From Cetobacterium sp. NK01 (GTDB lineage Bacteria; Fusobacteriota; Fusobacteriia; Fusobacteriales; Fusobacteriaceae), in the NCBI RefSeq assembly GCF_024506395.1, contig NZ_JANIBO010000002.1:62001-126000 (forward strand): a stretch of DNA of 64,000 bases, read 5' to 3'. Under the pieces are notes generated by a model. The model was not told the DNA's origin, did not search any database, and worked only from the letters and a program-made list of their open reading frames with translations. Positions 9,932 through 35,506 of this stretch are shown here, piece by piece; within the stretch, counting starts at the first letter, position 1; the number at the start of each line of letters is the position of its first letter. Position numbers and translations under genes: made by a program.

Positions 9932-9961
9932 AAGCTGTAGATGATTAGTTGTCTACAGCTT
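9932..9961. terminator. Bidirectional terminator between BCCT and lacI-type genes
   Basis: AAGCTGTAGA and TCTACAGCTT form a perfect 10-bp stem, with A/T tracts on both sides. It sits between convergent genes and overlaps the stop of the minus-strand regulator. Confidence 0.85.
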
Positions 9962-10946
9962 AATTTTTTATTTTTTCAGAGCCTTTTAATTTTAAAATAG
10001 GATTTATAATAATTTTTTGAGTATGCTCTGTATTATTTTTTAATTTTTTAAATAACATTTTTGCAGAAATCAATCCTATTTCAGAAATAGATCTAGTAAT
10101 AGAGCTTATATTTAAATTTAATATATCAAAATAATCTGGATTATCAAATCCGATGATAGAAATTTTATTTTTTTTATTAACTTCATTTTGGTATTTTATA
10201 AAACCAAGTGTAATAAGATTGCTACAGGAAAAAATAGCTGATAGATTGGAGTTTTTTGAACAAATATCCTTTGCAACATTGTAACCATCTTGAACTTCTA
10301 AGTCGATTTCATAAATAAAATTATTATTAAATTCAATATTATAAACTTTTAGAGCGTGACAATAACCAAGAAATCTATTATACATATTTTTATGTTTCAA
10401 TTTTCCAACTAAAATTCCGATATTACTATGATTCTCTTTTATTAAAGCTTCTGTTGCGAGAAAACCTGCTTTAAAATCATCTAAAAAAACTCCATCATGA
10501 TAAAAATCGAGCTCTCGATCAAATAAAACAAAGGGGATAGAATAGTCTTCTAGTTTTTTTAAATTTTTTTCAGAGTTACTACCACCAGAAGGACACATTA
10601 TAACACCTAGAATATTTGATTTAATTATAGAATCAATTGATTCTATTTCATTTTGAAAGTTTTCATCTGTATCAAAAATTAATACTTGATAGGACTCTTT
10701 TCTTGACTCTTCAGTTATCTTTTTTACAATTTCAGAAAAAAAAGGATTTTTCAAATCTGAGACAATAACAGCAATTCTTTTTATATCATTAGCTATTTTA
10801 TAAGAGTTATTATAAAATCCAGACTCTATTAAAAGTTTTTCAATTAAATCTCGTTTTTCTTTTCCTACACCTGTTTTATTATTTAAAACTCTAGATACTG
10901 TTGAAACAGAGGTGTTTGCACTTTTAGCAATTTCTTTTAATTTCAT
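9960..10946 (-). CDS. LacI-family transcriptional regulator of the fucose locus
   Basis: The 328-residue protein has an N-terminal LacI helix-turn-helix (MKLKEIAKSANTSVSTVSRV, residues 1-20, then the hinge helix region) and a periplasmic-binding-like effector domain (about 60-325) with VIVSDLKNPFFSEIV and SIIGFDNPDYFDIL. It is divergent from the fuc operon, and a perfect palindrome lies between them. The family represses sugar operons and is released by the sugar or a phosphorylated intermediate. The ligand is inferred to be L-fucose or a catabolite, from context only. The ATG at 10946 follows GGGAGGAACC. Confidence 0.9.
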   Translation of the reverse strand: MKLKEIAKSANTSVSTVSRVLNNKTGVGKEKRDLIEKLLIESGFYNNSYKIANDIKRIAVIVSDLKNPFFSEIVKKITEESRKESYQVLIFDTDENFQNEIESIDSIIKSNILGVIMCPSGGSNSEKNLKKLEDYSIPFVLFDRELDFYHDGVFLDDFKAGFLATEALIKENHSNIGILVGKLKHKNMYNRFLGYCHALKVYNIEFNNNFIYEIDLEVQDGYNVAKDICSKNSNLSAIFSCSNLITLGFIKYQNEVNKKNKISIIGFDNPDYFDILNLNISSITRSISEIGLISAKMLFKKLKNNTEHTQKIIINPILKLKGSEKIKN

Positions 10947-11037
10947 AAGGTTCCTCCCTAAAATTAAGCTGATATATTTTTAAGTATATACCAGAAATAG
11001 AAAAAAATGTATATATTTAATATAATTTTTTCTGAAA

Positions 11038-11059
11038 TTTACGCAAATTTTTGCGTAAA
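11038..11059. promoter_or_regulatory. Perfect palindromic operator in the lacI-fuc intergenic region
   Basis: Half-sites TTTACGCAAA and TTTGCGTAAA, exact reverse complements, flank a TT centre. The CG-containing word stands out in a very AT-rich gap. Position between a divergent LacI regulator and its target operon makes it the likely binding site. No second copy is visible in the window. Confidence 0.7.
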
Positions 11060-11086
11060 TAAATTATAAAATTCCTTGTTTTGTTA

Positions 11087-11115
11087 TTGATTTCAAGAAA
11101 AATATAAAGTATATA
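11087..11115 (+). promoter_or_regulatory. Candidate fuc operon promoter
   Basis: TTGATT (11087-11092) and TATATA (11110-11115) have a 17-base spacer. The palindromic operator ends 28 bases upstream of the -35. Confidence 0.5.
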
Positions 11116-11172
11116 TCTAATAGAATAAAAAATATACACAGTGTTTTACTGAAAATAGGGAGGTAATTTTAA

Positions 11173-11820
11173 TTGAAAATTGAGCATATTAGAGAAAAAA
11201 TTATTGCAACATCGCTGAAAATGTTGAGTGATCAACTTACAAATGGAACAGCAGGAAATATTAGTATCTACGATAGAAGTGAAAATTTAATCGCAATAAC
11301 TCCTTCAGGAATTCCATATTCACTTTTAAAACCTGAAGATGTATCAGTTGTTGATTTAGATGGAAATTTAATAGAAGGAAAAACACCAAGTAGTGAGTTA
11401 GAGATGCATTTAATGCTCTATAGAAATCGAAATAATATAAATGCAGTGATACATGGTCACACTAAATATTCAACAGCCATAGCATGTTTAAGAAAAAACT
11501 TACCTGCAATAGATTATATGATAGCAGTTACTGGTGACAAAGAAGTTAGATGTGCTAATTATGCAAGTTATGGAACAAAAGAACTAGCTGAAAATTGTTT
11601 TAATACTATGAGAAATTCAAGAGCGTGTCTATTAGCTAACCATGGAATAACAACAGCAGGAGAGGATATTGAAATAGCTTATAATGTTTTAACTCAAGTA
11701 GAATATATTTCAAGTTTGTATCTATTATCTTCATCTGTTGGAGAGCCAGTAATTATAGAAGATGAAGAAATATATAATATGATAGAAAGATTCAAAGATT
11801 ATGGTAAAAAAATAAAATAG
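11173..11820 (+). CDS. fucA: L-fuculose-1-phosphate aldolase-like class II aldolase
   Basis: The 215-residue protein is a zinc aldolase of the class II/adducin family. It cleaves L-fuculose 1-phosphate to dihydroxyacetone phosphate and L-lactaldehyde. The metal ligands match E. coli FucA: HGH at 94-96 and H157 in ANHGI, with the catalytic Glu at 75 in SSELEMH. NGTAGNISI near 24-32 binds the phosphate. The length equals the family norm. The start is a TTG at 11173 with a GGGAGG site. First gene of the operon. The presence of fucI downstream favours fuculose over rhamnulose phosphate. Confidence 0.88.
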   Translation: MKIEHIREKIIATSLKMLSDQLTNGTAGNISIYDRSENLIAITPSGIPYSLLKPEDVSVVDLDGNLIEGKTPSSELEMHLMLYRNRNNINAVIHGHTKYSTAIACLRKNLPAIDYMIAVTGDKEVRCANYASYGTKELAENCFNTMRNSRACLLANHGITTAGEDIEIAYNVLTQVEYISSLYLLSSSVGEPVIIEDEEIYNMIERFKDYGKKIK

Positions 11821-11829
11821 GGAGGTTTT

Positions 11830-13164
11830 ATGAAATCCGTTTTATGTTTAGATTTAGGTGCTTCTAGTGGAAGAGCAATTATTGTTACAAATAATAATAA
11901 TTGCTTAGAATTAAATGAAGTTCATAGATTTCCAACAAAAACTTTAAATAAAAATGGAAAAATTTATTGGGATTTGCCCTATATTTTAAATGAAATTAAA
12001 ATAGGAATAAAAAAAGCACTTAAAGAAAATGCAAACATTCGATCTTTAGGGATAGATACTTGGGGATGTGATTATGGATGGTTGGATGAAAATGGTCAAT
12101 TTTTTAGAAATCCAAGATCATATAGAACTTCTATACCACAAAAAGTAATTGATGAGGTTCATAATAAAATATCATTGGAAGAACACTATAATATTTGTGG
12201 AAATGGTCATTTTGCATTTAATTCAATATATCAATTATATCATGATATAAAGTATGAAAATATATTAGAGAATGGTGCTAAAGAATTTTTATTTATGCCA
12301 AACTTAATTTTATATTATTTAACAGGAGAAAAAGTATGGGAATATACTATAGCTTCTACCTCTGGATTATTAAATGCTGAAAATCGAGATTGGTCTAAAA
12401 CTATTTTCCAAAAGTTAGAACTTCCTTCAACTATTAAAGGTGAGCTGACTCATCCAGGGACTACATCTTATTTTTTAAAAGATGAAATTTTAAAAGAGTT
12501 AGATATATCTCAAAATATACCAATAGTTTGTGTTCCAGGTCATGATTCAGCTTGTGCAGTTATTGGAGCTAATTTAGATAACAATAGTGCATATTTGATA
12601 AATGGAACTTGGTCTCTTTTAGGAGTTGAGCTTTCTAAAACTATAACTGATTTAGTAGGGTTAAAAAAGGGATTGGTAAATGAAGGATCTTTAGAAAAAA
12701 AAATAAGATTTATGTCTATGACAATAGGAACGTTACCATTACAGTCTTTAAGAAATCAATGGAAAAAAGAAAATGAAGATATAGATTTCAAAGATTTTTC
12801 AAATCTAGCTAAAAATTCTATTTTGGATAATCATATTGAAATAACTGAAGAGTTTTTAAACACCACTGATATTGAAAATCTAATAAAAGATAAATATTTT
12901 AAAAAGTATCATTCTGTAATAAATTCTAAAGAAGATATTTTAAGAATAATCTATAACAGTTTAGGAAATAACTATAGAGAATCTTTAGAATTAATAAAAA
13001 CGTTATCTAATAAAGAGATCAATAATGTTGTGCTTTTAGGAGGAGGTAATCAAGATAGTTTTTTAATAGAAATTATTAAAAAATCTTTTGATTGTTCCAT
13101 TACAATAGGTCCAATTGAAGCTTCAGTTACAGGAAATGCTTTAGCACAATTTAAAAGTTTATAA
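11830..13164 (+). CDS. FGGY carbohydrate kinase, rhamnulokinase/fuculokinase type
   Basis: This 444-residue sugar kinase phosphorylates a ketose at C1. The N-terminal ATPase fold begins CLDLGASSGRA. The WDLPYILNEI segment and LGIDTWGCDYGWLDENG (about residues 76-92) are typical of the rhamnulokinase (RhaB) branch. The second domain has PGHDSACAVIGA near 237-248 and a glycine-rich ATP loop VVLLGGGNQDSFL near 396-408. By sequence it is RhaB-like; by neighbours (fucA, fucI) it probably phosphorylates L-fuculose. It starts 9 bases after fucA with GGGAGG as ribosome site. Confidence 0.85.
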   Translation: MKSVLCLDLGASSGRAIIVTNNNNCLELNEVHRFPTKTLNKNGKIYWDLPYILNEIKIGIKKALKENANIRSLGIDTWGCDYGWLDENGQFFRNPRSYRTSIPQKVIDEVHNKISLEEHYNICGNGHFAFNSIYQLYHDIKYENILENGAKEFLFMPNLILYYLTGEKVWEYTIASTSGLLNAENRDWSKTIFQKLELPSTIKGELTHPGTTSYFLKDEILKELDISQNIPIVCVPGHDSACAVIGANLDNNSAYLINGTWSLLGVELSKTITDLVGLKKGLVNEGSLEKKIRFMSMTIGTLPLQSLRNQWKKENEDIDFKDFSNLAKNSILDNHIEITEEFLNTTDIENLIKDKYFKKYHSVINSKEDILRIIYNSLGNNYRESLELIKTLSNKEINNVVLLGGGNQDSFLIEIIKKSFDCSITIGPIEASVTGNALAQFKSL

Positions 13165-26273: not shown

Positions 26274-27173
26274 ATGAAAAAAGTTATAGTTTTCCTATTT
26301 ATCACGTCGATATCTTTATTAAAGGGAGATGATATGAGTAAATTAAAGATGAGAGAACTTATTAAACAAATAAAAATCCAATCCAAAGAAAAAATATTAG
26401 TGCCACAAAATGGAACTAATATTTTTTTTAATGGAGATAAATTAGATGAAGAATTTATTAAAAATATAGATGGGGTTTCACAGGAATCTCTTTTTTATGG
26501 TGTAGGAGGAGTAAATAAAGAAACACCAATAGAAGAAAGAAACTATCTTTTGAAAAATTTGGTAGAGATAGAAAAAAGTGGAAAAGTTGTATTTTCAGTA
26601 AATTATGCAAATGATAAAAAATTAAGAGATATAATTTTAAAAGATACAAGAAAGTATAATTTTATAGGAGAAGCAGTGCCATCTTATAGTGCTAACGCAA
26701 TATTTAATCCTCTTCAAAAAAATAGTTCAAAAGATGTATTAAGTTTAAAAGATGTTAAAAATTTTTTATATATATTAAATCCTGAAAAATTTAATAATTT
26801 AGATGATTATTATAGAGTTTTAAAAAATACAGATTTTGATTTACTTATAATGGAACCAAGTTTAAATGGAGAATTCTTATCTAAAAAGCAGATAGAATCT
26901 TTAAAAGTTAGAAAAGATGGAACTAAAAGATTGATAATTGCTTATTTTAGTATAGGAGAAGCAGAAAATTATAGATATTATTGGAAAAAATCGTGGAATA
27001 AAAAATTACCTAGTTGGATTGTAAAGGAAAATGAGAATTGGAAAGGTAATTATATAATAAAATATTGGGATTTAGAGTGGAAAGAGATTATAAAAAATTA
27101 TCAAAAGAAATTAGATGATATAGGAGTTGATGGATATTATCTAGATACTATTGATACATATGAACAGTTTTAA
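26274..27173 (+). CDS. Exported GH114/GH166-like (PelA hydrolase-type) glycosidase
   Basis: A 299-residue protein with a signal peptide at about 1-18. From about residue 150 it matches the TM1410/endo-alpha-1,4-polygalactosaminidase fold: FDLLIMEPSLNGEF, LIIAYFSIGEAENYRYYW, NYIIKYWDLEWKEII and VDGYYLDTID. The acidic residues of IMEP, GEAE and LDTID are the expected active-site positions. In Pel systems this domain is the N-terminal hydrolase of PelA, an alpha-1,4-N-acetylgalactosaminidase. Here it is a separate gene. It stops only five residues after LDTID, shorter than usual at the C-terminus. It starts the Pel-like operon, 12 bases before pelD. Confidence 0.75.
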   Translation: MKKVIVFLFITSISLLKGDDMSKLKMRELIKQIKIQSKEKILVPQNGTNIFFNGDKLDEEFIKNIDGVSQESLFYGVGGVNKETPIEERNYLLKNLVEIEKSGKVVFSVNYANDKKLRDIILKDTRKYNFIGEAVPSYSANAIFNPLQKNSSKDVLSLKDVKNFLYILNPEKFNNLDDYYRVLKNTDFDLLIMEPSLNGEFLSKKQIESLKVRKDGTKRLIIAYFSIGEAENYRYYWKKSWNKKLPSWIVKENENWKGNYIIKYWDLEWKEIIKNYQKKLDDIGVDGYYLDTIDTYEQF

Positions 27174-27185
27174 AGGTGGTTTATT

Positions 27186-28391
27186 ATGAAAAAAAATTTT
27201 TTTATAAGTATAGCAGAAAGTATTTTATATTGTCTTTTAGTATATTTAATATTTTTTTATTATTCAAATTTTAAAAGTGAATTTTTAACTATGAATATAC
27301 AACCTTTAGCTATTGTAGTTGGGTTAATAGCTTTAAAATATGGAGTTTACAGCAGTTTACAAACTGTTTTAGTAGCTTCATTTTTTTATATTTTTTCATA
27401 TTATCAACTAGGAAATGACCCAGTTGTTTTCTTTTTAGATTTTAATTACTATAAATTTATATTAATATTCTTTTTTATAGCATTAACTCTAGGAAGAGTT
27501 TCAGATAACTTTAGAAATAGAATAGTTGAACTACAAGAAAAAAATATAGATTTAGATGAAAGATTAAAAAGTCAAAGAGAAAAAAACATTATGTTAGTAA
27601 ATATAAATGAAAGATTAAAAACGAGAATAATAGGAAGTAAGGAGAGTATTTTAACTTTACATCAAATAACTTCTTCAATATTAACAGAAAATGTAGAGCG
27701 AATATTCACACAGATCTTAGAAATTTTAATAGATTTTTTAGGAAGTGACGTAGTTTCAATATACATTTATAATAAAGAGAGAAATATTTTTCGAGGAAGA
27801 ATAAAAATTGGGAATAGTTTATTGCCTAATTTTATTGAGGTTAAAGAGGGTGATTTATATTCTAAAGTTTTAAAAAATAAAGTTACTTTAGAAGGAAACA
27901 GAGAGCTAAAAGAACCAGTTTATATTTCTCCAATTTTAAAAAATAATGAAGTAGTAGGAGTTATTAATATTGAAAGATTAAAATATGGAAATGAAGAGAA
28001 ATATTTGCTAGAACTTTTTAAAGTTATTAGTCAATGGATAAATAATGCTTTGGTAAAAGCTTTTGAAGAAAATGAAAAAGAAATAAAAAATAATGTTTTT
28101 GAAAATACAAGAATTTATAACTTAAAATACTTTTCCTATGTATTAGAAGAGGATAAGAAAAGAAAAAAACTTTTTAATACAGAATATATAGCTTTAGAAG
28201 GAAAAAATCCAGGATTAACACCAATTCAATTAAATGAACTATTGAAAGGAAAAGTTAGAGATATAGATATTATAGGTATGAATGAAGAGGTTATAAAATT
28301 TTTATTTGTAAATGCTTCTAAAAAAGATAAAGATCTTCTCACTAAAAGAATTGGAGATATATTGTTAGGAGTTGAACTTTATGAAATCTAA
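27186..28391 (+). CDS. pelD: PelD-like c-di-GMP receptor of Pel polysaccharide synthesis
   Basis: The 401-residue protein has about four N-terminal membrane spans (residues 7-105), a short coiled coil (about 115-150), a GAF domain (about 155-285), and a degenerate GGDEF domain. The I-site R-x-x-D is intact as RDID at 358-361. The catalytic GGDEF position five residues later reads EEVIK, so it should bind c-di-GMP but not make it. This matches P. aeruginosa PelD, which switches on Pel synthesis when c-di-GMP binds. It overlaps the next gene by 11 bases. The ATG follows AGGTGG. Confidence 0.85.
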   Translation: MKKNFFISIAESILYCLLVYLIFFYYSNFKSEFLTMNIQPLAIVVGLIALKYGVYSSLQTVLVASFFYIFSYYQLGNDPVVFFLDFNYYKFILIFFFIALTLGRVSDNFRNRIVELQEKNIDLDERLKSQREKNIMLVNINERLKTRIIGSKESILTLHQITSSILTENVERIFTQILEILIDFLGSDVVSIYIYNKERNIFRGRIKIGNSLLPNFIEVKEGDLYSKVLKNKVTLEGNRELKEPVYISPILKNNEVVGVINIERLKYGNEEKYLLELFKVISQWINNALVKAFEENEKEIKNNVFENTRIYNLKYFSYVLEEDKKRKKLFNTEYIALEGKNPGLTPIQLNELLKGKVRDIDIIGMNEEVIKFLFVNASKKDKDLLTKRIGDILLGVELYEI

Positions 28392-30210
28392 ATATATATT
28401 GGGATTAGTATTAGTAGCGGTTTTTTTCTTTCAAGAGCTAAGAGTAAAAAATATAGAAGATCTATTTAATTTGAAGCAAACTTACAACTTCGAACTTCCT
28501 CCACCAATTTCTGGAAATTTAAAAATAGATAATCCAAAAAAATATTTAGTGCTATATGAAGAAAAAAGTGAAGGAAGCGAAGAAATAAAAAATGGAGTAG
28601 AAGAGGTTTTTCGATTTTCTAAAATAAAGTATGATATTTTACCAATTTCCACTACCAAGGTATTAGATTTAAAAGATTATAGTTTAATACTATTAGTAGC
28701 AGAAAATTATAGTGGATTAACTTATGATAATTATATAAGAATAAAAGAAGGAGTTGAAAGTGGTAAAAATCTTTTTATAACAGAAAGAGCTTACAGAAGT
28801 CCTTTTAATTCTTTAGCAGGTATTGAAAAAGTAGATGAATTTATTGAAACAAAAAGTTTTCAATTTAAAAAAGAGATATTTCCAGGTTTAAAAAATTTAA
28901 GGCCTGGAAGCATTATTTTTGGGAGTTCAGGTTTGAAAATAACATTGAAAAATGACGTGGATATAATTGCTACAACTGACGATCAAAAACCACTAATGTG
29001 GATTAATAAATATGGAAAAGGAAAAGTTTTTTATAGCAATTCAACTTTATTTCAAGGGAAAATATTTAGAGGAATTATGAAACAACTTATTAGTTATATT
29101 GAAGACGTTTCTTTTTATCCAATTTTAAATTCAAAAATTCTTCAAATAGATGACTTTCCATCTCCTATTCCAGTTGTAGAAAATGAAATAATTCAAAAAG
29201 AGTATGGACTAGATACAAGTGGATTTTTTAATCTTATTTGGTGGCAAGATATGATGGGAATTGTTGAAAGACAAAGACTTAAAATGACTGGTTTTTTAAT
29301 TGTGGAATATAATGATTTAACAGTGAAAGATAAAATACTTGGAATTGGAAAGAGAACGTTTAATGACTTAAGCAAAAGAGGAAGAGAGTTAAAATCTATA
29401 GGAGGAGAATTAGGATTACATGGATACAATCACTACTCTTTAGGTTTAGAAAAGGAAATTAATTATGAACATTATGGATATACCCCTTGGGAAAGTGTAG
29501 ATGCTATGAAAAAAGGTTTAACTATAGCTAAAGATGAGATTAAAAAACTTTATGGGGATAACTTTCATATATACAGTTATGTTCCACCTAGTAATTTGTT
29601 GCCTAAAAGTGGTAAACAAGCTATAGTAAAAACTTTTCCAGATTTAAAAGCATTTTGTGGAATATTTTATGGAGAATATGAACCAGGATTACTTTTACAA
29701 GAGATAGGAAGAGATCCTGATTTTAAAGATGTATATAGCTTGCCAAGAATGTCTTCAGGATTTTTTTATAATGATACAATTATTTGGCAAATATTAAATG
29801 GAATAGGTGCTTATGGTTATCTTTCTCATTTTATTCATCCAGATGATATTATGGATAAAGAAAGAGGAGAGGGAAAATCTTGGGAAGAACTAAAAAAAGA
29901 GTTTGAAAAAATTTTTTATACTATAAATAAAGAATATAGTGTATTAGAGCCCAATATTCAGAGTGAAATGACCTATAATTATAGTGTTATAGAAACAATA
30001 AGTGTTGCGTATGAGAAAAAAGATGAAAATGTATATATAAATATTGATAACTATAGAGACGAGTTTGCAGCTCATTTTAGAGCAAAAGGAAAAAAAATAA
30101 TTAATGTCATAGGTGGAGAATTTAAAGTAATAAATAAAACATCAGAAGATATTCTGTATCTAATAAGTGTTAAAAGTCCAGAGTTAAAAATTGTTATGGA
30201 GGATTTCTAA
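28381..30210 (+). CDS. PelA-type polysaccharide deacetylase (DUF2194-like)
   Basis: A 609-residue protein with an N-terminal hydrophobic signal or anchor (residues 5-20). A glutamine-amidotransferase-like N-domain (about 50-245) is followed by a NodB-type deacetylase domain with motif 1 LQIDDFPSP (about 255-263), motif 2 LHGYNHYS (about 344-351), motif 3 SYVPPSNLL (about 402-410) and SHFIHPDD late in the domain. The metal-binding Asp and two His are present. In Pel synthesis this activity deacetylates the polymer and is needed for export. It corresponds to the stand-alone PelA-DA of Gram-positive pel clusters. I start it at the ATG at 28381, after AGGAG; the in-frame TTG at 28372 touches that site. 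Confidence 0.82.
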   Translation: MKSKYILGLVLVAVFFFQELRVKNIEDLFNLKQTYNFELPPPISGNLKIDNPKKYLVLYEEKSEGSEEIKNGVEEVFRFSKIKYDILPISTTKVLDLKDYSLILLVAENYSGLTYDNYIRIKEGVESGKNLFITERAYRSPFNSLAGIEKVDEFIETKSFQFKKEIFPGLKNLRPGSIIFGSSGLKITLKNDVDIIATTDDQKPLMWINKYGKGKVFYSNSTLFQGKIFRGIMKQLISYIEDVSFYPILNSKILQIDDFPSPIPVVENEIIQKEYGLDTSGFFNLIWWQDMMGIVERQRLKMTGFLIVEYNDLTVKDKILGIGKRTFNDLSKRGRELKSIGGELGLHGYNHYSLGLEKEINYEHYGYTPWESVDAMKKGLTIAKDEIKKLYGDNFHIYSYVPPSNLLPKSGKQAIVKTFPDLKAFCGIFYGEYEPGLLLQEIGRDPDFKDVYSLPRMSSGFFYNDTIIWQILNGIGAYGYLSHFIHPDDIMDKERGEGKSWEELKKEFEKIFYTINKEYSVLEPNIQSEMTYNYSVIETISVAYEKKDENVYINIDNYRDEFAAHFRAKGKKIINVIGGEFKVINKTSEDILYLISVKSPELKIVMEDF

Positions 30211-31088
30211 TGAAGATAAAATGTTTATTATTAGGGTTAGTATTTTGTATTGCAGATACAATCTTATTTATATATTTTCAAAATGAATTTTTAACATTTA
30301 GATCTAAATTCTGGATAGGGCATATGTTATTAGCCATACTTTTTATATATATAACAAACAAGTTTTCAAAAGACAAACAATTTGATATATTTATTTTAAT
30401 TTTTCCAATAGTAGGTTATATATTGTTTATGATTAATAAAGTTTTATTTTTTAGAAAATATTTTAATAGTGAAGTTGAAATAAATGAGGATTTAGAAAAA
30501 TATATATTAAATGAAGAGAAAGAGATTATAGTTAATCAATCTATTGATCTGAATTTAATTGGTGCATATGACATACTCTCTGTTGGGACTCCAGTAGAGA
30601 AAAAAAACTTTTTAATAGGTTTTGAAACTCAAAATTTAAGTTTTAAGGTTCAAATTTTAAAAAAAGCTTTATGGGATTCAGATATAGAGGTTATACATTA
30701 TGCAGCTACAGAGATAAATAAAATAGATGAAAATTTTCAAAAGTTAATCAAAGAGAAAACATTAGAAAAAGATTTAAACTCTTTGTGTAATATCTATTTT
30801 GATTATTGTACTTCTGGACTTTTAGTAGGAGAAGTTTTAGAGTTTTATCAACTTAAATTTATAGAACTTATTAAAGAGAAGGGGTCTTTAGAAGTATATG
30901 ATTACTATAAACTTTTGATCATATATAGTGATATGAAAGAGTATGAACTTTGTAGTAAATTGATTATTAAAATTAAAGAGAGTAAGAGATATAATACAGA
31001 AATTTTAAATTTTATAAAAAAATATTATTATGATTTAAATGATTATAAAATGTTGAAAGAGGTTGAAAAATGGCAAGAATCTGTCTAA
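30210..31088 (+). CDS. pelE: PelE-like membrane protein with TPR-like repeats
   Basis: The 292-residue protein has three N-terminal membrane segments (about 3-22, 36-50, 59-80) and a helical soluble part. The segment LKKALWDSDIEVIHYAATEI near residues 151-170 is characteristic of PelE, followed by TPR-like helices (YDYYKLLIIYSDMKEYELCS). In the Pel machine PelE forms the inner-membrane complex with PelD, PelF and PelG. The ATG overlaps the previous stop (TAATG), and it overlaps pelF by 19 bases. Confidence 0.82.
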   Translation: MKIKCLLLGLVFCIADTILFIYFQNEFLTFRSKFWIGHMLLAILFIYITNKFSKDKQFDIFILIFPIVGYILFMINKVLFFRKYFNSEVEINEDLEKYILNEEKEIIVNQSIDLNLIGAYDILSVGTPVEKKNFLIGFETQNLSFKVQILKKALWDSDIEVIHYAATEINKIDENFQKLIKEKTLEKDLNSLCNIYFDYCTSGLLVGEVLEFYQLKFIELIKEKGSLEVYDYYKLLIIYSDMKEYELCSKLIIKIKESKRYNTEILNFIKKYYYDLNDYKMLKEVEKWQESV

Positions 31089-32497
31089 TATGTGAAGGAT
31101 CTTATCCATATGTTGTAGGTGGAGTTTCATCTTGGATACAAGAGCTTGTAAAATCAAATGAAGAGCACGAGTTTTCAATAGTATGCATAATACCAAATTT
31201 AGAGTTTGCAAAGAATAAGTATGAAATTCCTAAAAATATTGTTGAGATAAAAAATGTAGTTTTAGATAAAAAATATGAGGTTTCGCCATTTAAAGTTTTA
31301 AAAAATAGAGTTATTTTTAATAAATTAGAAAATGAAATAGAAAAAGTTTTAAACTTTAAAACAGAAGAATTAAAAGAAACAACTAGAATTATAAAAAAAA
31401 TATCAAATAAAAAATATGGAAATCCATTAGAGATAATATTAAATAAAAGTTTTTGGAACAGTTTATTAAAATACTATAATAAAAATTATGAAGATATTGG
31501 TTTTAATACCTTTTATTGGACTTATAGAAATATATTTTTAAATTTAATATCCTTAGCACAAGAGGATTTACCTAAGGCGGATATATACCATCCAGTTGCT
31601 ACAGGATATTCAGGATATATTTCTGCTTTAGCTAAGTTACAAAATGGAGGCTCACTTTTATTAACAGAACATGGGATATACCCAAGAGAAAGAGAGGAAG
31701 AGATTATTGGAGCTAAGTGGATCGAGAAAGATTTTAAAAAAATATGGATAGATTTCTTTTATTTTCTATCTAAGTTAACTTATGATGAGTGTGATAAAAT
31801 TATATCTCTATTTGAGTATAATAAGCAATTACAAATAGAAAATGGAGCTAAAAAAGAGAGATGTAAGGTTATTCCAAATGGAATAGATGTAGATATGTAT
31901 TCTAAAATTATACATGAAAAAAGAGATGGATTTAGTGTAGGATCAGTTTTGAGAGTAGTTCCTATAAAAGATGTAAAAATGATGTTAAAAGGATTTAAAA
32001 TGGCTCTTCCAAAATTAAAAAATACAAAACTATATCTAATAGGGCCAACTGAAGAAAATAAAGAGTATTATAATGAATGTTTAGAATTAGTAAGAAATTT
32101 ACAACTTGAAGATGATGTTATATTTACAGGAAGAGTAGACGTGAAAGAGTATTATAAATTTTTAGATATTTTATTATTAACATCAATATCAGAAGGACAA
32201 CCACTTAGTATTTTAGAAGGGTTAGCTTGTGGAATACCATTTATAGCTACTGATGTAGGGAATTGTAGAGAGATATTAAAAGAGAAAGAGGAGGGAGAAG
32301 CTGGGATAATAGTTCCACCTACTTCATACTCAGATTTAGGGGAAGCAATAGTTTCATTTTTTCAAAATAAAGAAAAAATAAAAGAGATGGGAATAGTTGG
32401 AAAAAAAATTGTAGAAAGATATTATTCTAAAAAACATTTTATTGATTCTTATAAGATATTGTACAAAGAGTTAGGAGAGAAGAGATGGCAGGAATAG
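31070..32497 (+). CDS. pelF: PelF-type GT4 glycosyltransferase
   Basis: The 475-residue cytosolic glycosyltransferase has the PelF-specific start MARICLICEGSYPYVVGGVS and a GT-B fold. Near residue 200 is TEHGIYPREREEEI. The nucleotide-sugar binding part contains PNGIDVDMYS and the GT4 E-x7-E type motif SEGQPLSILEGLACGIP (about 375-391). PelF is the polymerase that uses UDP-GalNAc or UDP-GlcNAc. The start lies inside pelE and the end overlaps pelG by 13 bases, indicating tight coupling of pelEFG. Confidence 0.93.
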   Translation: MARICLICEGSYPYVVGGVSSWIQELVKSNEEHEFSIVCIIPNLEFAKNKYEIPKNIVEIKNVVLDKKYEVSPFKVLKNRVIFNKLENEIEKVLNFKTEELKETTRIIKKISNKKYGNPLEIILNKSFWNSLLKYYNKNYEDIGFNTFYWTYRNIFLNLISLAQEDLPKADIYHPVATGYSGYISALAKLQNGGSLLLTEHGIYPREREEEIIGAKWIEKDFKKIWIDFFYFLSKLTYDECDKIISLFEYNKQLQIENGAKKERCKVIPNGIDVDMYSKIIHEKRDGFSVGSVLRVVPIKDVKMMLKGFKMALPKLKNTKLYLIGPTEENKEYYNECLELVRNLQLEDDVIFTGRVDVKEYYKFLDILLLTSISEGQPLSILEGLACGIPFIATDVGNCREILKEKEEGEAGIIVPPTSYSDLGEAIVSFFQNKEKIKEMGIVGKKIVERYYSKKHFIDSYKILYKELGEKRWQE

Positions 32498-34599
32498 GAT
32501 TTGAATTGAAAAATTTATTTTCTGAAGAAAATAGTACGTTAGAAGATATAAAAGCTATAGCTTACTCAGCTCTTATAGGAGTAGGACCTTGGCTTATAAC
32601 TGTAATTACTTTAAATGTATTAATGTTTGTTGGGAAACAATATATCTTACTGAGAAGTGAAAGAAACTTATTCATGACAGCTATTGTATATTCATTTATA
32701 TTTTCTCAACTTTTAACAGGAACTATTCAATATTTAATAACAAGATTTATTTCAGATTGTATATATTCAGGAGAACAGAAAAAGCTGCGTTCAACATATA
32801 TTGGAGCAATAAAATTTATAACACTAATAGCATTTTTTATAGGTGTATTTTATTTTAAAAATACAAATCTATCTTGGTTTTTTACATATACATTAATACT
32901 ATTATTCTGTTTTCTATCAGGTATTTGGATAAGCATGAATTTTATATCTGTTATAAAAGATTATAGCTATTCTATTATAGCTTATGTCTTAGGGAATGTT
33001 GTAGCTATTTTAATGGGACTATATTTATTAGAGTATTCAAAAAATGATTTTTTTAAAAGTAATTTAGCTTTTTCAATTGTTCTTTCTTATACAGTAGGGA
33101 TAGCAGTAACATTTTTTATGTTATATATCTATTTAACCTATATATTTGAAAATTCTCAAGAAAATGAATTTGAGTTTTTAAGATCATTTAAAAGATATTC
33201 TTCATTAAGTTTTATTGGAATATTTTTAAATTTTGCTATGTGGTCTCATGTTTTTATAAATTGGATATATGGAAGTTCATATAGGGTAGGTGGAGTATTT
33301 TTAAGTTCACCTTTATACGAAGTAGCAGTATTTTACGCATTTTTTTTAACAATTCCCACAATGATATATTTTTTAGTTTTTATGGAAACAAAATTTTTCC
33401 CAAATTACAAGAGATATTATGCTATGTTAACATTAAATGGAAAGTTAAGGGAGATTAACGAGGAAAGAAAAAAGATGATGGAGATTTTAAAAGATGAGAT
33501 CTATTACATAATGGAATTACAATTTTTTATCTCTCTTTCAGTAGCATTAATTTCAAAATTGATATTTTTAAATTTTGGTATGGATTTATATTTGTTAGAT
33601 CTTTTTAGAATTATGATATTTGCGGCGTATTGTACAGTTTTTATAACTATATATATAACTATATTTTTATATTTTGATTCTAGAAAAGAAGCACTTTTTA
33701 TATCCTGTTTGTTTTTTTTATTGAGTGTATTATGTACCTTAGGGACATCTTTTTTAGGTGAAAAATATAGTGGGTTAGGCTTTTTTATAGCCTCTTTTAT
33801 AACTCTTATATGTTCTGAGTTAACTTTAGAAAAAATTTCAAAAGATTTAAACTATATAACTTTTTACAAACAAAATTTTTCTTTTAATATTCAAGCTCCA
33901 ATAATTGAAAAAGTTGAAAAAATATTAAATAAGAGATTTTTATTACCAATTTTAGTGGCTATTATTTTGCTGATAAGTGGATGTACTTCATCTCATACCC
34001 AAGATGGTTTTAATATGAAAACTAAAAGAAACTGGCACACAATGAGTTATTACAATAAAGCTGGATTTGATTATGATGGATATAATCAAGAGGGGATAAA
34101 CTCTAGGGGATTTACAAAAGAGGGATGGAATACATATACAGATTCTCCCTATGATTATTCCAACTTTGATTTTACAGGTATAAATAGTGAAACTGGTAAG
34201 AATATTGATAAAAGAGGATTTGATTATAAGGGATACAACTATTTAACAAAATCAAAATATGATAAAAATGGATTTGATTTTTTAGGAATAAATAAAGAAA
34301 CAAATACAGAGTATGATAAAAATGGATGGACATGGTATGGATTGAATAAAGAGACAAATAATTATTATGATAAAGCTGGATATAATTATGAAGGTTATAA
34401 TGAAGAGGGATATAATAGAGCAGGATATGATATAAATGGAAATAAAAAACCAAAAGAAGAGATAGAAAATATTACAGGAAACCAGAATGAAGAAGAGCTT
34501 TATGATAAGGATGGTTACGATAAATACGGTTATGATGAAAATGGAGTAAATAGAGAAGGATTTAATAGAAAAGGGGTGTATGTGGGAGATGAATATTAA
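32485..34599 (+). CDS. pelG: PelG-like transporter fused to a periplasmic lipobox and repeat domain
   Basis: The first 460 residues are a PelG-type MATE/Wzx-like integral membrane protein with about 12 spans, beginning MAGIGFELKNLF. PelG normally ends near 455-490 residues; this one has 704. The extension starts with an extra hydrophobic helix ending in a lipobox (LLISGC, C500, codon at 33982), then about 180 residues of D/N-x-x-G-aromatic repeats (523-697). No in-frame ATG, and no GTG or TTG with a ribosome site, lies just before that helix, so it is a true fusion in this sequence. An extra span would put the repeats in the periplasm. Overlaps both neighbours. Confidence 0.88.
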   Translation: MAGIGFELKNLFSEENSTLEDIKAIAYSALIGVGPWLITVITLNVLMFVGKQYILLRSERNLFMTAIVYSFIFSQLLTGTIQYLITRFISDCIYSGEQKKLRSTYIGAIKFITLIAFFIGVFYFKNTNLSWFFTYTLILLFCFLSGIWISMNFISVIKDYSYSIIAYVLGNVVAILMGLYLLEYSKNDFFKSNLAFSIVLSYTVGIAVTFFMLYIYLTYIFENSQENEFEFLRSFKRYSSLSFIGIFLNFAMWSHVFINWIYGSSYRVGGVFLSSPLYEVAVFYAFFLTIPTMIYFLVFMETKFFPNYKRYYAMLTLNGKLREINEERKKMMEILKDEIYYIMELQFFISLSVALISKLIFLNFGMDLYLLDLFRIMIFAAYCTVFITIYITIFLYFDSRKEALFISCLFFLLSVLCTLGTSFLGEKYSGLGFFIASFITLICSELTLEKISKDLNYITFYKQNFSFNIQAPIIEKVEKILNKRFLLPILVAIILLISGCTSSHTQDGFNMKTKRNWHTMSYYNKAGFDYDGYNQEGINSRGFTKEGWNTYTDSPYDYSNFDFTGINSETGKNIDKRGFDYKGYNYLTKSKYDKNGFDFLGINKETNTEYDKNGWTWYGLNKETNNYYDKAGYNYEGYNEEGYNRAGYDINGNKKPKEEIENITGNQNEEELYDKDGYDKYGYDENGVNREGFNRKGVYVGDEY
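34051..34575 (+). repeat. Coding pentapeptide-like repeats at the end of pelG
   Basis: About 20 units of the pattern D/N-x-x-G-[YFWIV] occur in PelG residues 523-697, for example DKNGF, DKAGY, NEEGY, NREGF. They are grouped in runs separated by short K/E/T-rich spacers such as NKETN. Net composition is acidic, aromatic and Gly/Asn rich. The DNA repeats are imperfect, so they have diverged but kept the protein pattern. Confidence 0.85.
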
Positions 34600-35506
34600 G
34601 CAAATAGTTTATATATTTTTTCTATTTAATATGACCTCTTTTGCTGTTGGTCGAGAGATCTTAAACTTTTATATAGAGGAATCAGAAAACAATATTTATC
34701 AAAATTATGGAGAGTTAGAAAGTAAGGCTGGTAAAAAATTTTATAAGTGGAAAATAGGAACTGGATCATCAAATCTTAATGAAAATTGGATTTTTGACTA
34801 TGATATAGAAAAAAAATATGATAAAGAGGAGAATACTGATGGATGGGAAAATACCTTTTCTTTATCTAGAAAATTAACAGAAAAAGAGATTTTTGGAAAA
34901 AGTTGGTATATGGATATAGGACCATATGTTAAATATAATGTAAGTGATATAGCTGGAGATTTTGGTGAAGATTTTAAAGAAAATAAATATTCTTTGAGAT
35001 ACAGAGTCAGAACAAATTCAGATTTAGGTTTAGGTGGAGCTTATTGGGGAGTTGACTTTTTTATTTCATCTATTGATACAAACTCAAGAGATGGATACTC
35101 TTTTGAGGGAAACTTCACAGGAAATATAAATTTAGGATATGGTTTTCAGAATTTTTTCACAATTTACAACGAGTATTTAGATTATGCTAACAATAGAGGA
35201 ACATATTTATTTAGAGTTGAAAATAACTTTAGATGGACATACGATCTTAGTGAAAAATTTGCTTTGTCAATAGATTCAGAAATAGATTCGTATAACTATT
35301 TTAGAAATACAGATCAAGATAAATCTTTTAAATTTAATATAGGTCCATATATATTGTACAGTCAAGATATAACTGATGAATTCCGTATATTTGCTAAGGT
35401 TGGAGTTGTAGGATATAATTTTGAAGAGGTTAAAACAAAATTTTCAAGTGTTTCTGAATCTGGACTATATATAAAAATTAGATGTGGTTTTGAATATATT
35501 TTTTAA
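34580..35506 (+). CDS. Outer-membrane beta-barrel protein at the end of the Pel operon
   Basis: The 308-residue protein has a signal peptide (about 1-23, ending FAVG) and a body of alternating aromatic/polar strands, such as YSLRYRVRT, GNINLGYGF and FRVENNFRW. The last strand GLYIKIRCGFEYIF ends in Phe, the usual C-terminal signal of outer-membrane barrels. I predict about 12 strands. I recognise no named family. It overlaps pelG by 20 bases and is the last gene before a gap, so it is very likely part of the Pel system, in the place where other diderms have the PelB porin. The start could also be the ATG at 34589. Confidence 0.7.
   Translation: MWEMNIKQIVYIFFLFNMTSFAVGREILNFYIEESENNIYQNYGELESKAGKKFYKWKIGTGSSNLNENWIFDYDIEKKYDKEENTDGWENTFSLSRKLTEKEIFGKSWYMDIGPYVKYNVSDIAGDFGEDFKENKYSLRYRVRTNSDLGLGGAYWGVDFFISSIDTNSRDGYSFEGNFTGNINLGYGFQNFFTIYNEYLDYANNRGTYLFRVENNFRWTYDLSEKFALSIDSEIDSYNYFRNTDQDKSFKFNIGPYILYSQDITDEFRIFAKVGVVGYNFEEVKTKFSSVSESGLYIKIRCGFEYIF

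Follow-up and report, generated by a model that had tools for sequence, protein, structure and literature searches.

Among the described Pel systems, the PelGs of Pseudomonas aeruginosa and Bacillus cereus (PF16933) stop after their 12th membrane span, and partners outside the cytoplasm are encoded separately, as with PelC, the lipoprotein that forms a ring in the PelBC complex of P. aeruginosa (PMC12141448), and with the extracytoplasmic CotH-like accessory protein encoded after pelG in many Clostridia and Paenibacillaceae, which the searched papers on Gram-positive pel report only as a separate downstream gene (PMC7112168); deletion of the CotH gene SIR_1594 of Streptococcus intermedius alters Pel level and aggregation (PMC12345266). 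In Fusobacterium nucleatum, pelF and pelG were found to be expressed and regulated in co-culture (PMC9848294). Here, a 64,000-nucleotide (nt) window from Cetobacterium sp. NK01 (contig NZ_JANIBO010000002.1, positions 62,001 to 126,000) was analysed for a pel operon in which pelG is continued by a tail resembling a lipoprotein.

The Cetobacterium PelG is like the known PelGs over the whole 452-position model, in its MATE/MOP fold and in the adjacent pelF, but adds what appears to be a complete lipoprotein with its signal peptide. Like PelC, the tail would be a Pel-operon lipoprotein, predicted between the inner-membrane exporter and an outer-membrane barrel, but no sequence similarity to PelC was found, it is made of repeats rather than an LpoB-like domain, and it is encoded as the C-terminus of PelG and thus in a fixed 1:1 ratio. 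The CotH domain is unrelated (PF08757 with an FnIII-like end) and Gram-positive, whereas its connection is shared, as other Paenibacillaceae fuse CotH to PelG through an internal lipobox. In polytopic proteins with an internal span dependent on twin-arginine translocation (Tat), a signal-like segment after several spans likewise exports a C-terminal domain, but these use Tat instead of a lipoprotein signal and have no signal peptidase II site (PMC5449189).

The fused reading frame and its internal lipobox

A single open frame at 32485-34599 encodes PelG and the C-terminal tail as one protein of 704 amino acids (aa), with the following parts.

32485..33864, + strand: PelG transporter core, aa 1-460, 12 predicted spans, MATE/MOP fold (PF16933, 2e-125; AlphaFold2; structural matches)
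33919..33981, + strand: putative internal signal peptide, aa 479-499, with the positive n-region KILNKR and the 13th hydrophobic segment up to the lipobox (hydropathy; strict lipobox pattern; alignment to the signal peptide at the start of the stand-alone homologue from genus g12)
33982..33984, + strand: C500, codon TGT, Cys predicted to be lipidated and cleaved (LISG before C; Cys kept in 16/19 fusobacterial fusions, counterpart Cys in 18/18 PelG::CotH fusions)
33982..34596, + strand: predicted mature lipoprotein, aa 500-704, 205 residues (separate gene in G022, G080, G083 and G085; ratio of nonsynonymous to synonymous substitution rates, dN/dS, of 0.12-0.18, PelG-like)
34060..34590, + strand: aromatic repeat region, aa 526-702, with spacings of 5 and 13 residues and a 54-nt tandem element within (motif count; AlphaFold2)

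The PF16933 model was matched in full (positions 1-452 of 452) by aa 1-460 with 419.6 bits, at a cut-off of 29, and in the scan of the window proteins the rest beyond aa 460 matched no Pfam or NCBIfam family. In the full-length AlphaFold2 model the predicted local distance difference test score (pLDDT) was mostly >90 across aa 40-460, and aa 2-462 matched MATE, MurJ and WzxE structures with Z up to 24. The core is thus a PelG by its full-length PF16933 match, its MOP-type 12-span fold and the position of its gene beside pelF, in an operon that also has pelD/E-type genes and PelA-type domains. A profile search with a diverse alignment of tails gave no usable conserved stretch, and public genomes were therefore scanned with the fused PelG alignment, yielding 80 PelG loci. 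The 60 unfused PelGs among them, from many phyla, had 455-552 aa (median ~480, most 455-502), except for one Planctomycetota PelG of 883 aa with a low-complexity tail and no 13th span, so that the excess length of the window's PelG, pointed out in an earlier note on this DNA, is borne out.

The core is followed by KILNKR-FLLPILVAIILLISG-C500, with the lipobox LISG directly before C500. The maximum 17-aa Kyte-Doolittle mean of the 13th segment was 2.64, and C500 satisfies the strict lipobox pattern, which has only 0.18 occurrences per protein in the 465-aa PelG core; the hydrophobic helix and internal lipobox that the earlier note had described are therefore real. Proteins of the MATE topology have 12 spans and the C-terminus of the core lies in the cytoplasm, so the 13th segment would run from inside to outside, in the orientation of a signal peptide. 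The positive n-region, hydrophobic segment and lipobox Cys of a lipoprotein are all present; the signal is internal (aa 479-499 of 704), and it is N-terminal in the separate g12 homologues. LspA and Lgt are encoded in the same genome. LolA was not detected by the Pfam model, which leaves no argument for placing the lipoprotein in either the inner or the outer membrane.

All intact relatives, among them C. somerae with its complete replicon NZ_CP092520, have the frame uninterrupted, which rules out a sequencing error or mis-assembly, also one hiding a stop and a start. Alternatively, one mRNA could yield two products, with an internal start before the hydrophobic segment giving a separate lipoprotein and the fusion being mostly nominal. 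An in-frame ATG does lie near the segment in genomes G000b, G025 and G064, but candidate ATG, GTG and TTG codons vary between genomes and no usable start is conserved; the window has only a GTG (aa 491) and a TTG inside the hydrophobic segment, both without an upstream positive region and without an evident Shine-Dalgarno-like sequence. This explanation is considered very improbable, in line with the earlier statement that no usable internal start is seen and that the fusion looks real.

Separate and fused relatives

PelG was above the Pfam cut-off in 24 of 98 Fusobacteriota genomes. In one fusobacterial clade, each of the 19 PelGs sampled carries the tail, and the fused-tail PelGs form a single clade in the PelG tree, with a support of 100 in the Shimodaira-Hasegawa-like approximate likelihood ratio test (SH-aLRT). 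Fused tails of the same kind, 74-77 percent identical, occur in four more species of Cetobacterium, and others in Propionigenium maris (G014), several other genera, Leptotrichiaceae and a second pel operon of the same genome. This second operon (L004:5810-13957, contig C4) is diverged, its PelG being 47 percent identical and also fused. A fused pelG was also seen in Fusobacterium vincentii on a nearly unannotated 2.1-Mb record listed as a plasmid (L191, NZ_CP084075.1). Every pel operon sampled in the fused clade had repeats of the tail type with an NW-H-T/S-M start linked to its pelG. The earlier note had named unrelated, non-conserved tails in homologues as evidence against its reading; relatives carry the same tail, with dN/dS of 0.12-0.18.

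The tail is also found as a separate gene, a state the earlier note had suggested looking for. In genus g12 (genomes G022, G080, G083 and G085), PelG ends at 513-520 aa, and the next gene, ~20 nt downstream of pelG, encodes a stand-alone lipoprotein of 304-359 aa homologous to the tail. The stand-alone lipoprotein MKYKIAIVISGIIFMAGCSSYDKTGFN... aligns with the fused KKIYMVLVFISMIFLTGCSSYDNRGFN, and the lipoprotein start in G080, MKYKIAIVISGIIFMAGCSSYDKTGFNGNTKRNWHSMGY, has the fused counterpart KKIYMVLVFISMIFLTGCSSYDNRGFNTKTGRNWHTMGKF in G000b; by this alignment, the fused segment corresponds to a lipoprotein signal peptide, lipobox and mature start. The g12 PelG itself carries a terminal 13th span and is, judged by sequence, what cleavage before C500 would leave of the fused protein. 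All PelGs fused to an extracytoplasmic domain had a 13th span, which unfused PelGs lacked, apart from those of g12 and L107. The g12 PelGs branch as the sister group of the fused clade in the PelG tree; since L107 and genus g3 also have the 13th span, separate genes may have preceded the fusion, the direction depending on the root.

A second kind of fusion was found in Bacillota. PelGs of 17 Bacilli (Paenibacillus, Brevibacillus, Rummeliibacillus, Psychrobacillus and Solibacillus) and one Lachnospiraceae metagenome-assembled genome are fusions of 1029-1069 aa, laid out as PelG, hydrophobic segment, CotH-like domain and FnIII-like end; all 18 carry the lipobox Cys, at aa 489-500. The CotH-like domain was identified as PF08757 with >210 bits in the three proteins tested, and ten further samples of the same family, whose genomes possibly overlap, all had PelG::CotH. 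These proteins are joined at the same point as the fusobacterial fusion, with a cargo unrelated to the repeat tail, and the PelG tree requires at least two PelG::CotH origins, separate from the fusobacterial one. In sister Paenibacillaceae and in Clostridia, a separate CotH-like gene (recognised by sequence resemblance, with no Pfam scan) directly follows pelG, its product often having an N-terminal lipobox and sometimes an anchor instead. In the literature searched, neither PelG::CotH nor the fusobacterial PelG fusion was found to be mentioned.

Predicted signal peptidase sites and proposed processing of the precursor

The lipobox Cys was conserved in 16 of the 19 fused fusobacterial tails, 13 of them satisfying the strict pattern, and the helix around it varies while the Cys stays. 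At the same place, the Cys-less fusions read GSAKAHA-AYD, GGKANA-AYD and GGKIKA-STYD (hyphens marking the putative cuts), which resemble signal peptidase I sites, and relatives of these fusions, G054 and G091, have both LGSC and HAA. As LspA was present in all six genomes tested around the Cys-less fusions, the signal type appears to have changed while a signal peptidase site stayed, and such replacement of one site type by another is, at the level of sequence, the pattern expected from selection for cleavage. In G049, pelG is split by a frameshift (L064:9209-9934 and 9946-11907) and the tail has no lipobox Cys, a loss that could be due to relaxed selection.

These sites bear on the possibility that the tail is never released, the hydrophobic segment being a permanent 13th span that holds the repeat domain covalently on the periplasmic side and the Cys either a relic or lipidated and uncut. 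A tether of this kind would explain a hydrophobic segment behind 12 spans most simply, agrees with the loss of the Cys in Leptotrichiaceae, and has a parallel in the internal Tat-dependent span known before an extracytoplasmic domain in membrane proteins (PMC5449189). Drift would be expected of a relic Cys, but 16/19 fusions and 18/18 fusions of independent origin have retained it; the Cys-less exceptions have signal peptidase I-like sites; and the separate genes of g12 show that both parts can work unlinked. We consider a permanent tether unlikely, mainly because of the replacement of one signal peptidase site by another, and the comparative evidence, taken from sequences, favours cleavage over a simple 13th span.

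The protein is instead probably a transporter-lipoprotein polyprotein, in which the 13th span serves as a signal peptide processed by Lgt and LspA. Judged by its sequence and homology, aa 1-460 would form a normal 12-span MOP-type Pel exporter with a cytoplasmic C-terminus, and the hydrophobic segment would insert with its N-terminus inside, carrying the repeat domain into the periplasm. Lgt and LspA would then attach lipid to C500 and cleave the chain just ahead of it. The products, PelG with 13 spans (aa 1-499) and a lipoprotein of 205 residues made 1:1 beside the exporter, would be the same pair that the sister genus g12 would make from two genes. Periplasmic location, lipidation and cleavage of the tail are together judged likely. 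For the broader proposal we have only a slight preference: that signal peptidase II, or signal peptidase I in Leptotrichiaceae, cuts a 13-span precursor into exporter and partner in a fixed ratio, and that Pel systems have evolved this polyprotein strategy three times or more, with an aromatic-repeat lipoprotein in Fusobacteriota and an unrelated CotH-like one in Bacilli and in Lachnospiraceae.

Several points weigh against processing. Three of the 19 fusions, all in Leptotrichiaceae, have no Cys, and the three remaining Cys-containing ones read LNGC, an atypical lipobox. The usual substrates of LspA have their signal peptides at the N-terminus, and the literature search found no paper on an internal lipobox.

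The repeat domain and the surrounding pel operon

The tail, in which C500 is the sole Cys, contains 21 motifs of G, an aromatic or aliphatic residue and D, N, T, S or H, against a mean of 2.4 and a maximum of 9 in 2000 shuffles, which agrees with the roughly 20 D/N-x-x-G-aromatic units counted earlier; their spacings are mostly 5 and 13 residues. The fold of the tail was read from the full-length model, whose structural search was filled by matches of the transporter part. With pLDDT of 75-86 at aa 570-610 and 680-700 (<50 at aa 495-566) and bridges about every 5 residues, the model suggests a repetitive beta structure. The repeats gave no match to pentapeptide or other named repeat families of Pfam at E up to 1, and the tail no confident relative in the PDB. 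A relation to the designed Pizza6 propeller (best E 5e-6 with the whole sequence) was rejected as composition-driven, no single stretch being significant. The phage records searched for the tail contained none, and viral contigs gave generic repeats only.

Slippage at the DNA level was rejected as the origin of the repeats, as only 54-nt and 15-nt tandem elements with 75-77 percent matches were found and dN/dS points to selection on the protein. In the more distant Cetobacterium pairs, dN/dS was 0.12-0.18 for the tail and 0.11-0.14 for PelG, and because of these close values the tail is, by sequence comparison, a maintained protein domain under purifying selection like that on PelG.

The gene directly downstream, overlapping pelG by 20 nt, encodes a beta-barrel protein. 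The neighbouring genes of the operon are as follows.

26274..27173, + strand: GH114 endo-alpha-1,4-polygalactosaminidase, PelA hydrolase-like, first gene of the operon (PF03537, 44.6 bits; same gene in operons of relatives; so annotated in C. somerae)
27186..28391, + strand: PelD-like membrane protein with a GAF domain (weak GAF matches; conserved position)
28372..30210, + strand: DUF2194 protein, deacetylase-like, counterpart of the PelA deacetylase (PF09960, 326 bits; DUF2334 and weak polysaccharide deacetylase matches)
30210..31088, + strand: PelE-like protein (position and size between the DUF2194 gene and pelF; conserved in relatives; no Pfam match)
31070..32497, + strand: PelF glycosyltransferase (NF038011, 357 bits, cut-off 100)
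34580..35506, + strand: outer-membrane beta-barrel protein, 308 aa, candidate Pel exit porin (homologue in operons of relatives; low-confidence model)

A homologue of the beta-barrel protein was present in every operon with a fused or separate tail where the contig was sufficient. Its model (mean pLDDT 46) shows strands in succession and matches to porins at E slightly above 1e-3, which are supportive only; the product of 34580-35506 is a candidate for the Pel porin of the outer membrane and has no sequence relation to the PelB barrel. The PelB barrel family PF24604 was not found in the genome, nor did the beta-barrel neighbour match it, and a Zoogloea PelC query had no match in the genome at E 1, in a search run without a positive control. 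The earlier proposal of the tail as a PelC substitute is accordingly plausible from gene content, and no similarity to PelC supports it. Following the processing proposed above, the repeat domain would receive Pel from PelG and hand it to the beta-barrel encoded next, in a genome with no detectable PelB barrel or PelC; this is the least certain step, and a role of the tail in passing Pel to the barrel is offered tentatively.

A purely structural periplasmic or outer-membrane protein, binding the wall or docking the beta-barrel with no contact to the polymer, is likewise a possible but doubtful account of the tail. It would fit the occurrence of similar repeats in unrelated contexts, including a helicase-like protein, the lack of a conserved net charge, and the CotH-like cargo of Bacillota, which is not obviously sugar binding; the tie of NW-H-T/S-M-start repeats to pelG throughout the sampled operons of the clade and the stable aromatic content, near 14-20 percent among relatives, speak against it. 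Comparable repeats were also observed behind an N-terminal span in Cetobacterium G007 and G010 and at the end of a protein on a phage contig (L185).

A role of the tail in handling Pel is opposed by several findings. Its net charge ranges from -25 to +5 among relatives, and a helicase-like protein of superfamily 1 (L066:6463-9204) begins with 180 residues of GYDxxG repeats; since similar repeats stand in unrelated, probably cytosolic proteins, the repeats alone are no polysaccharide-binding signature. The earlier claim of an acidic domain well suited to bind cationic Pel was weakened by this charge range and by the repeats of probably cytosolic and phage-encoded proteins, and a case for Pel binding made from aromatic content is weak. 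That the fusobacterial operons produce Pel is itself inferred from gene content.

Some further features of pel operons were recorded. PelGs of genus g3 (L062:4198-7359, - strand; L063:9142-12240, + strand) have 1032-1053 aa; they possess a 13th span, and their long extension is rich in Asn, with a FEKEF-type end. Neither operon showed a barrel gene of its own, and in the g3 PelG an exporter and an outer-membrane barrel might be joined in one protein; a profile comparison of the 540-aa extension with the barrel family was negative. The PelD homologues at L059:3629-4555 and L060:4416-5303 have ~300 aa and are without the C-terminal stretch that follows GAF in the 401-aa PelD of the window, so that control by cyclic di-GMP may differ in operons with a short PelD. 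The window belongs to a contig of ~610 kb, and the pel operon of the window is matched by one on the 705-kb 'plasmid unnamed1' of C. somerae; pel may thus lie on a megaplasmid or second replicon.

As read from sequence, these proteins represent a new form of the Pel system, in which transporter and lipoprotein make up one polyprotein with a lipobox inside the chain, a form that evolved more than once with unrelated partners. Gene order is identical on the C. somerae replicon NZ_CP092520, where the Prokaryotic Genome Annotation Pipeline (PGAP) labels the protein plainly as PelG; such a transporter-borne lipoprotein is missed by standard annotation because lipoprotein signals are sought at N-termini. 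If the internal signal is processed, the substrate range of Lgt and LspA would be extended, and a new way of coupling an exporter to an extracytoplasmic partner would be at hand. The repeated independent fusion of pelG with the following lipoprotein points to an unstudied partner at the exit of PelG that may be general in Pel systems without PelB and PelC, and the fused PelG makes the outer-membrane route of fusobacterial Pel testable.
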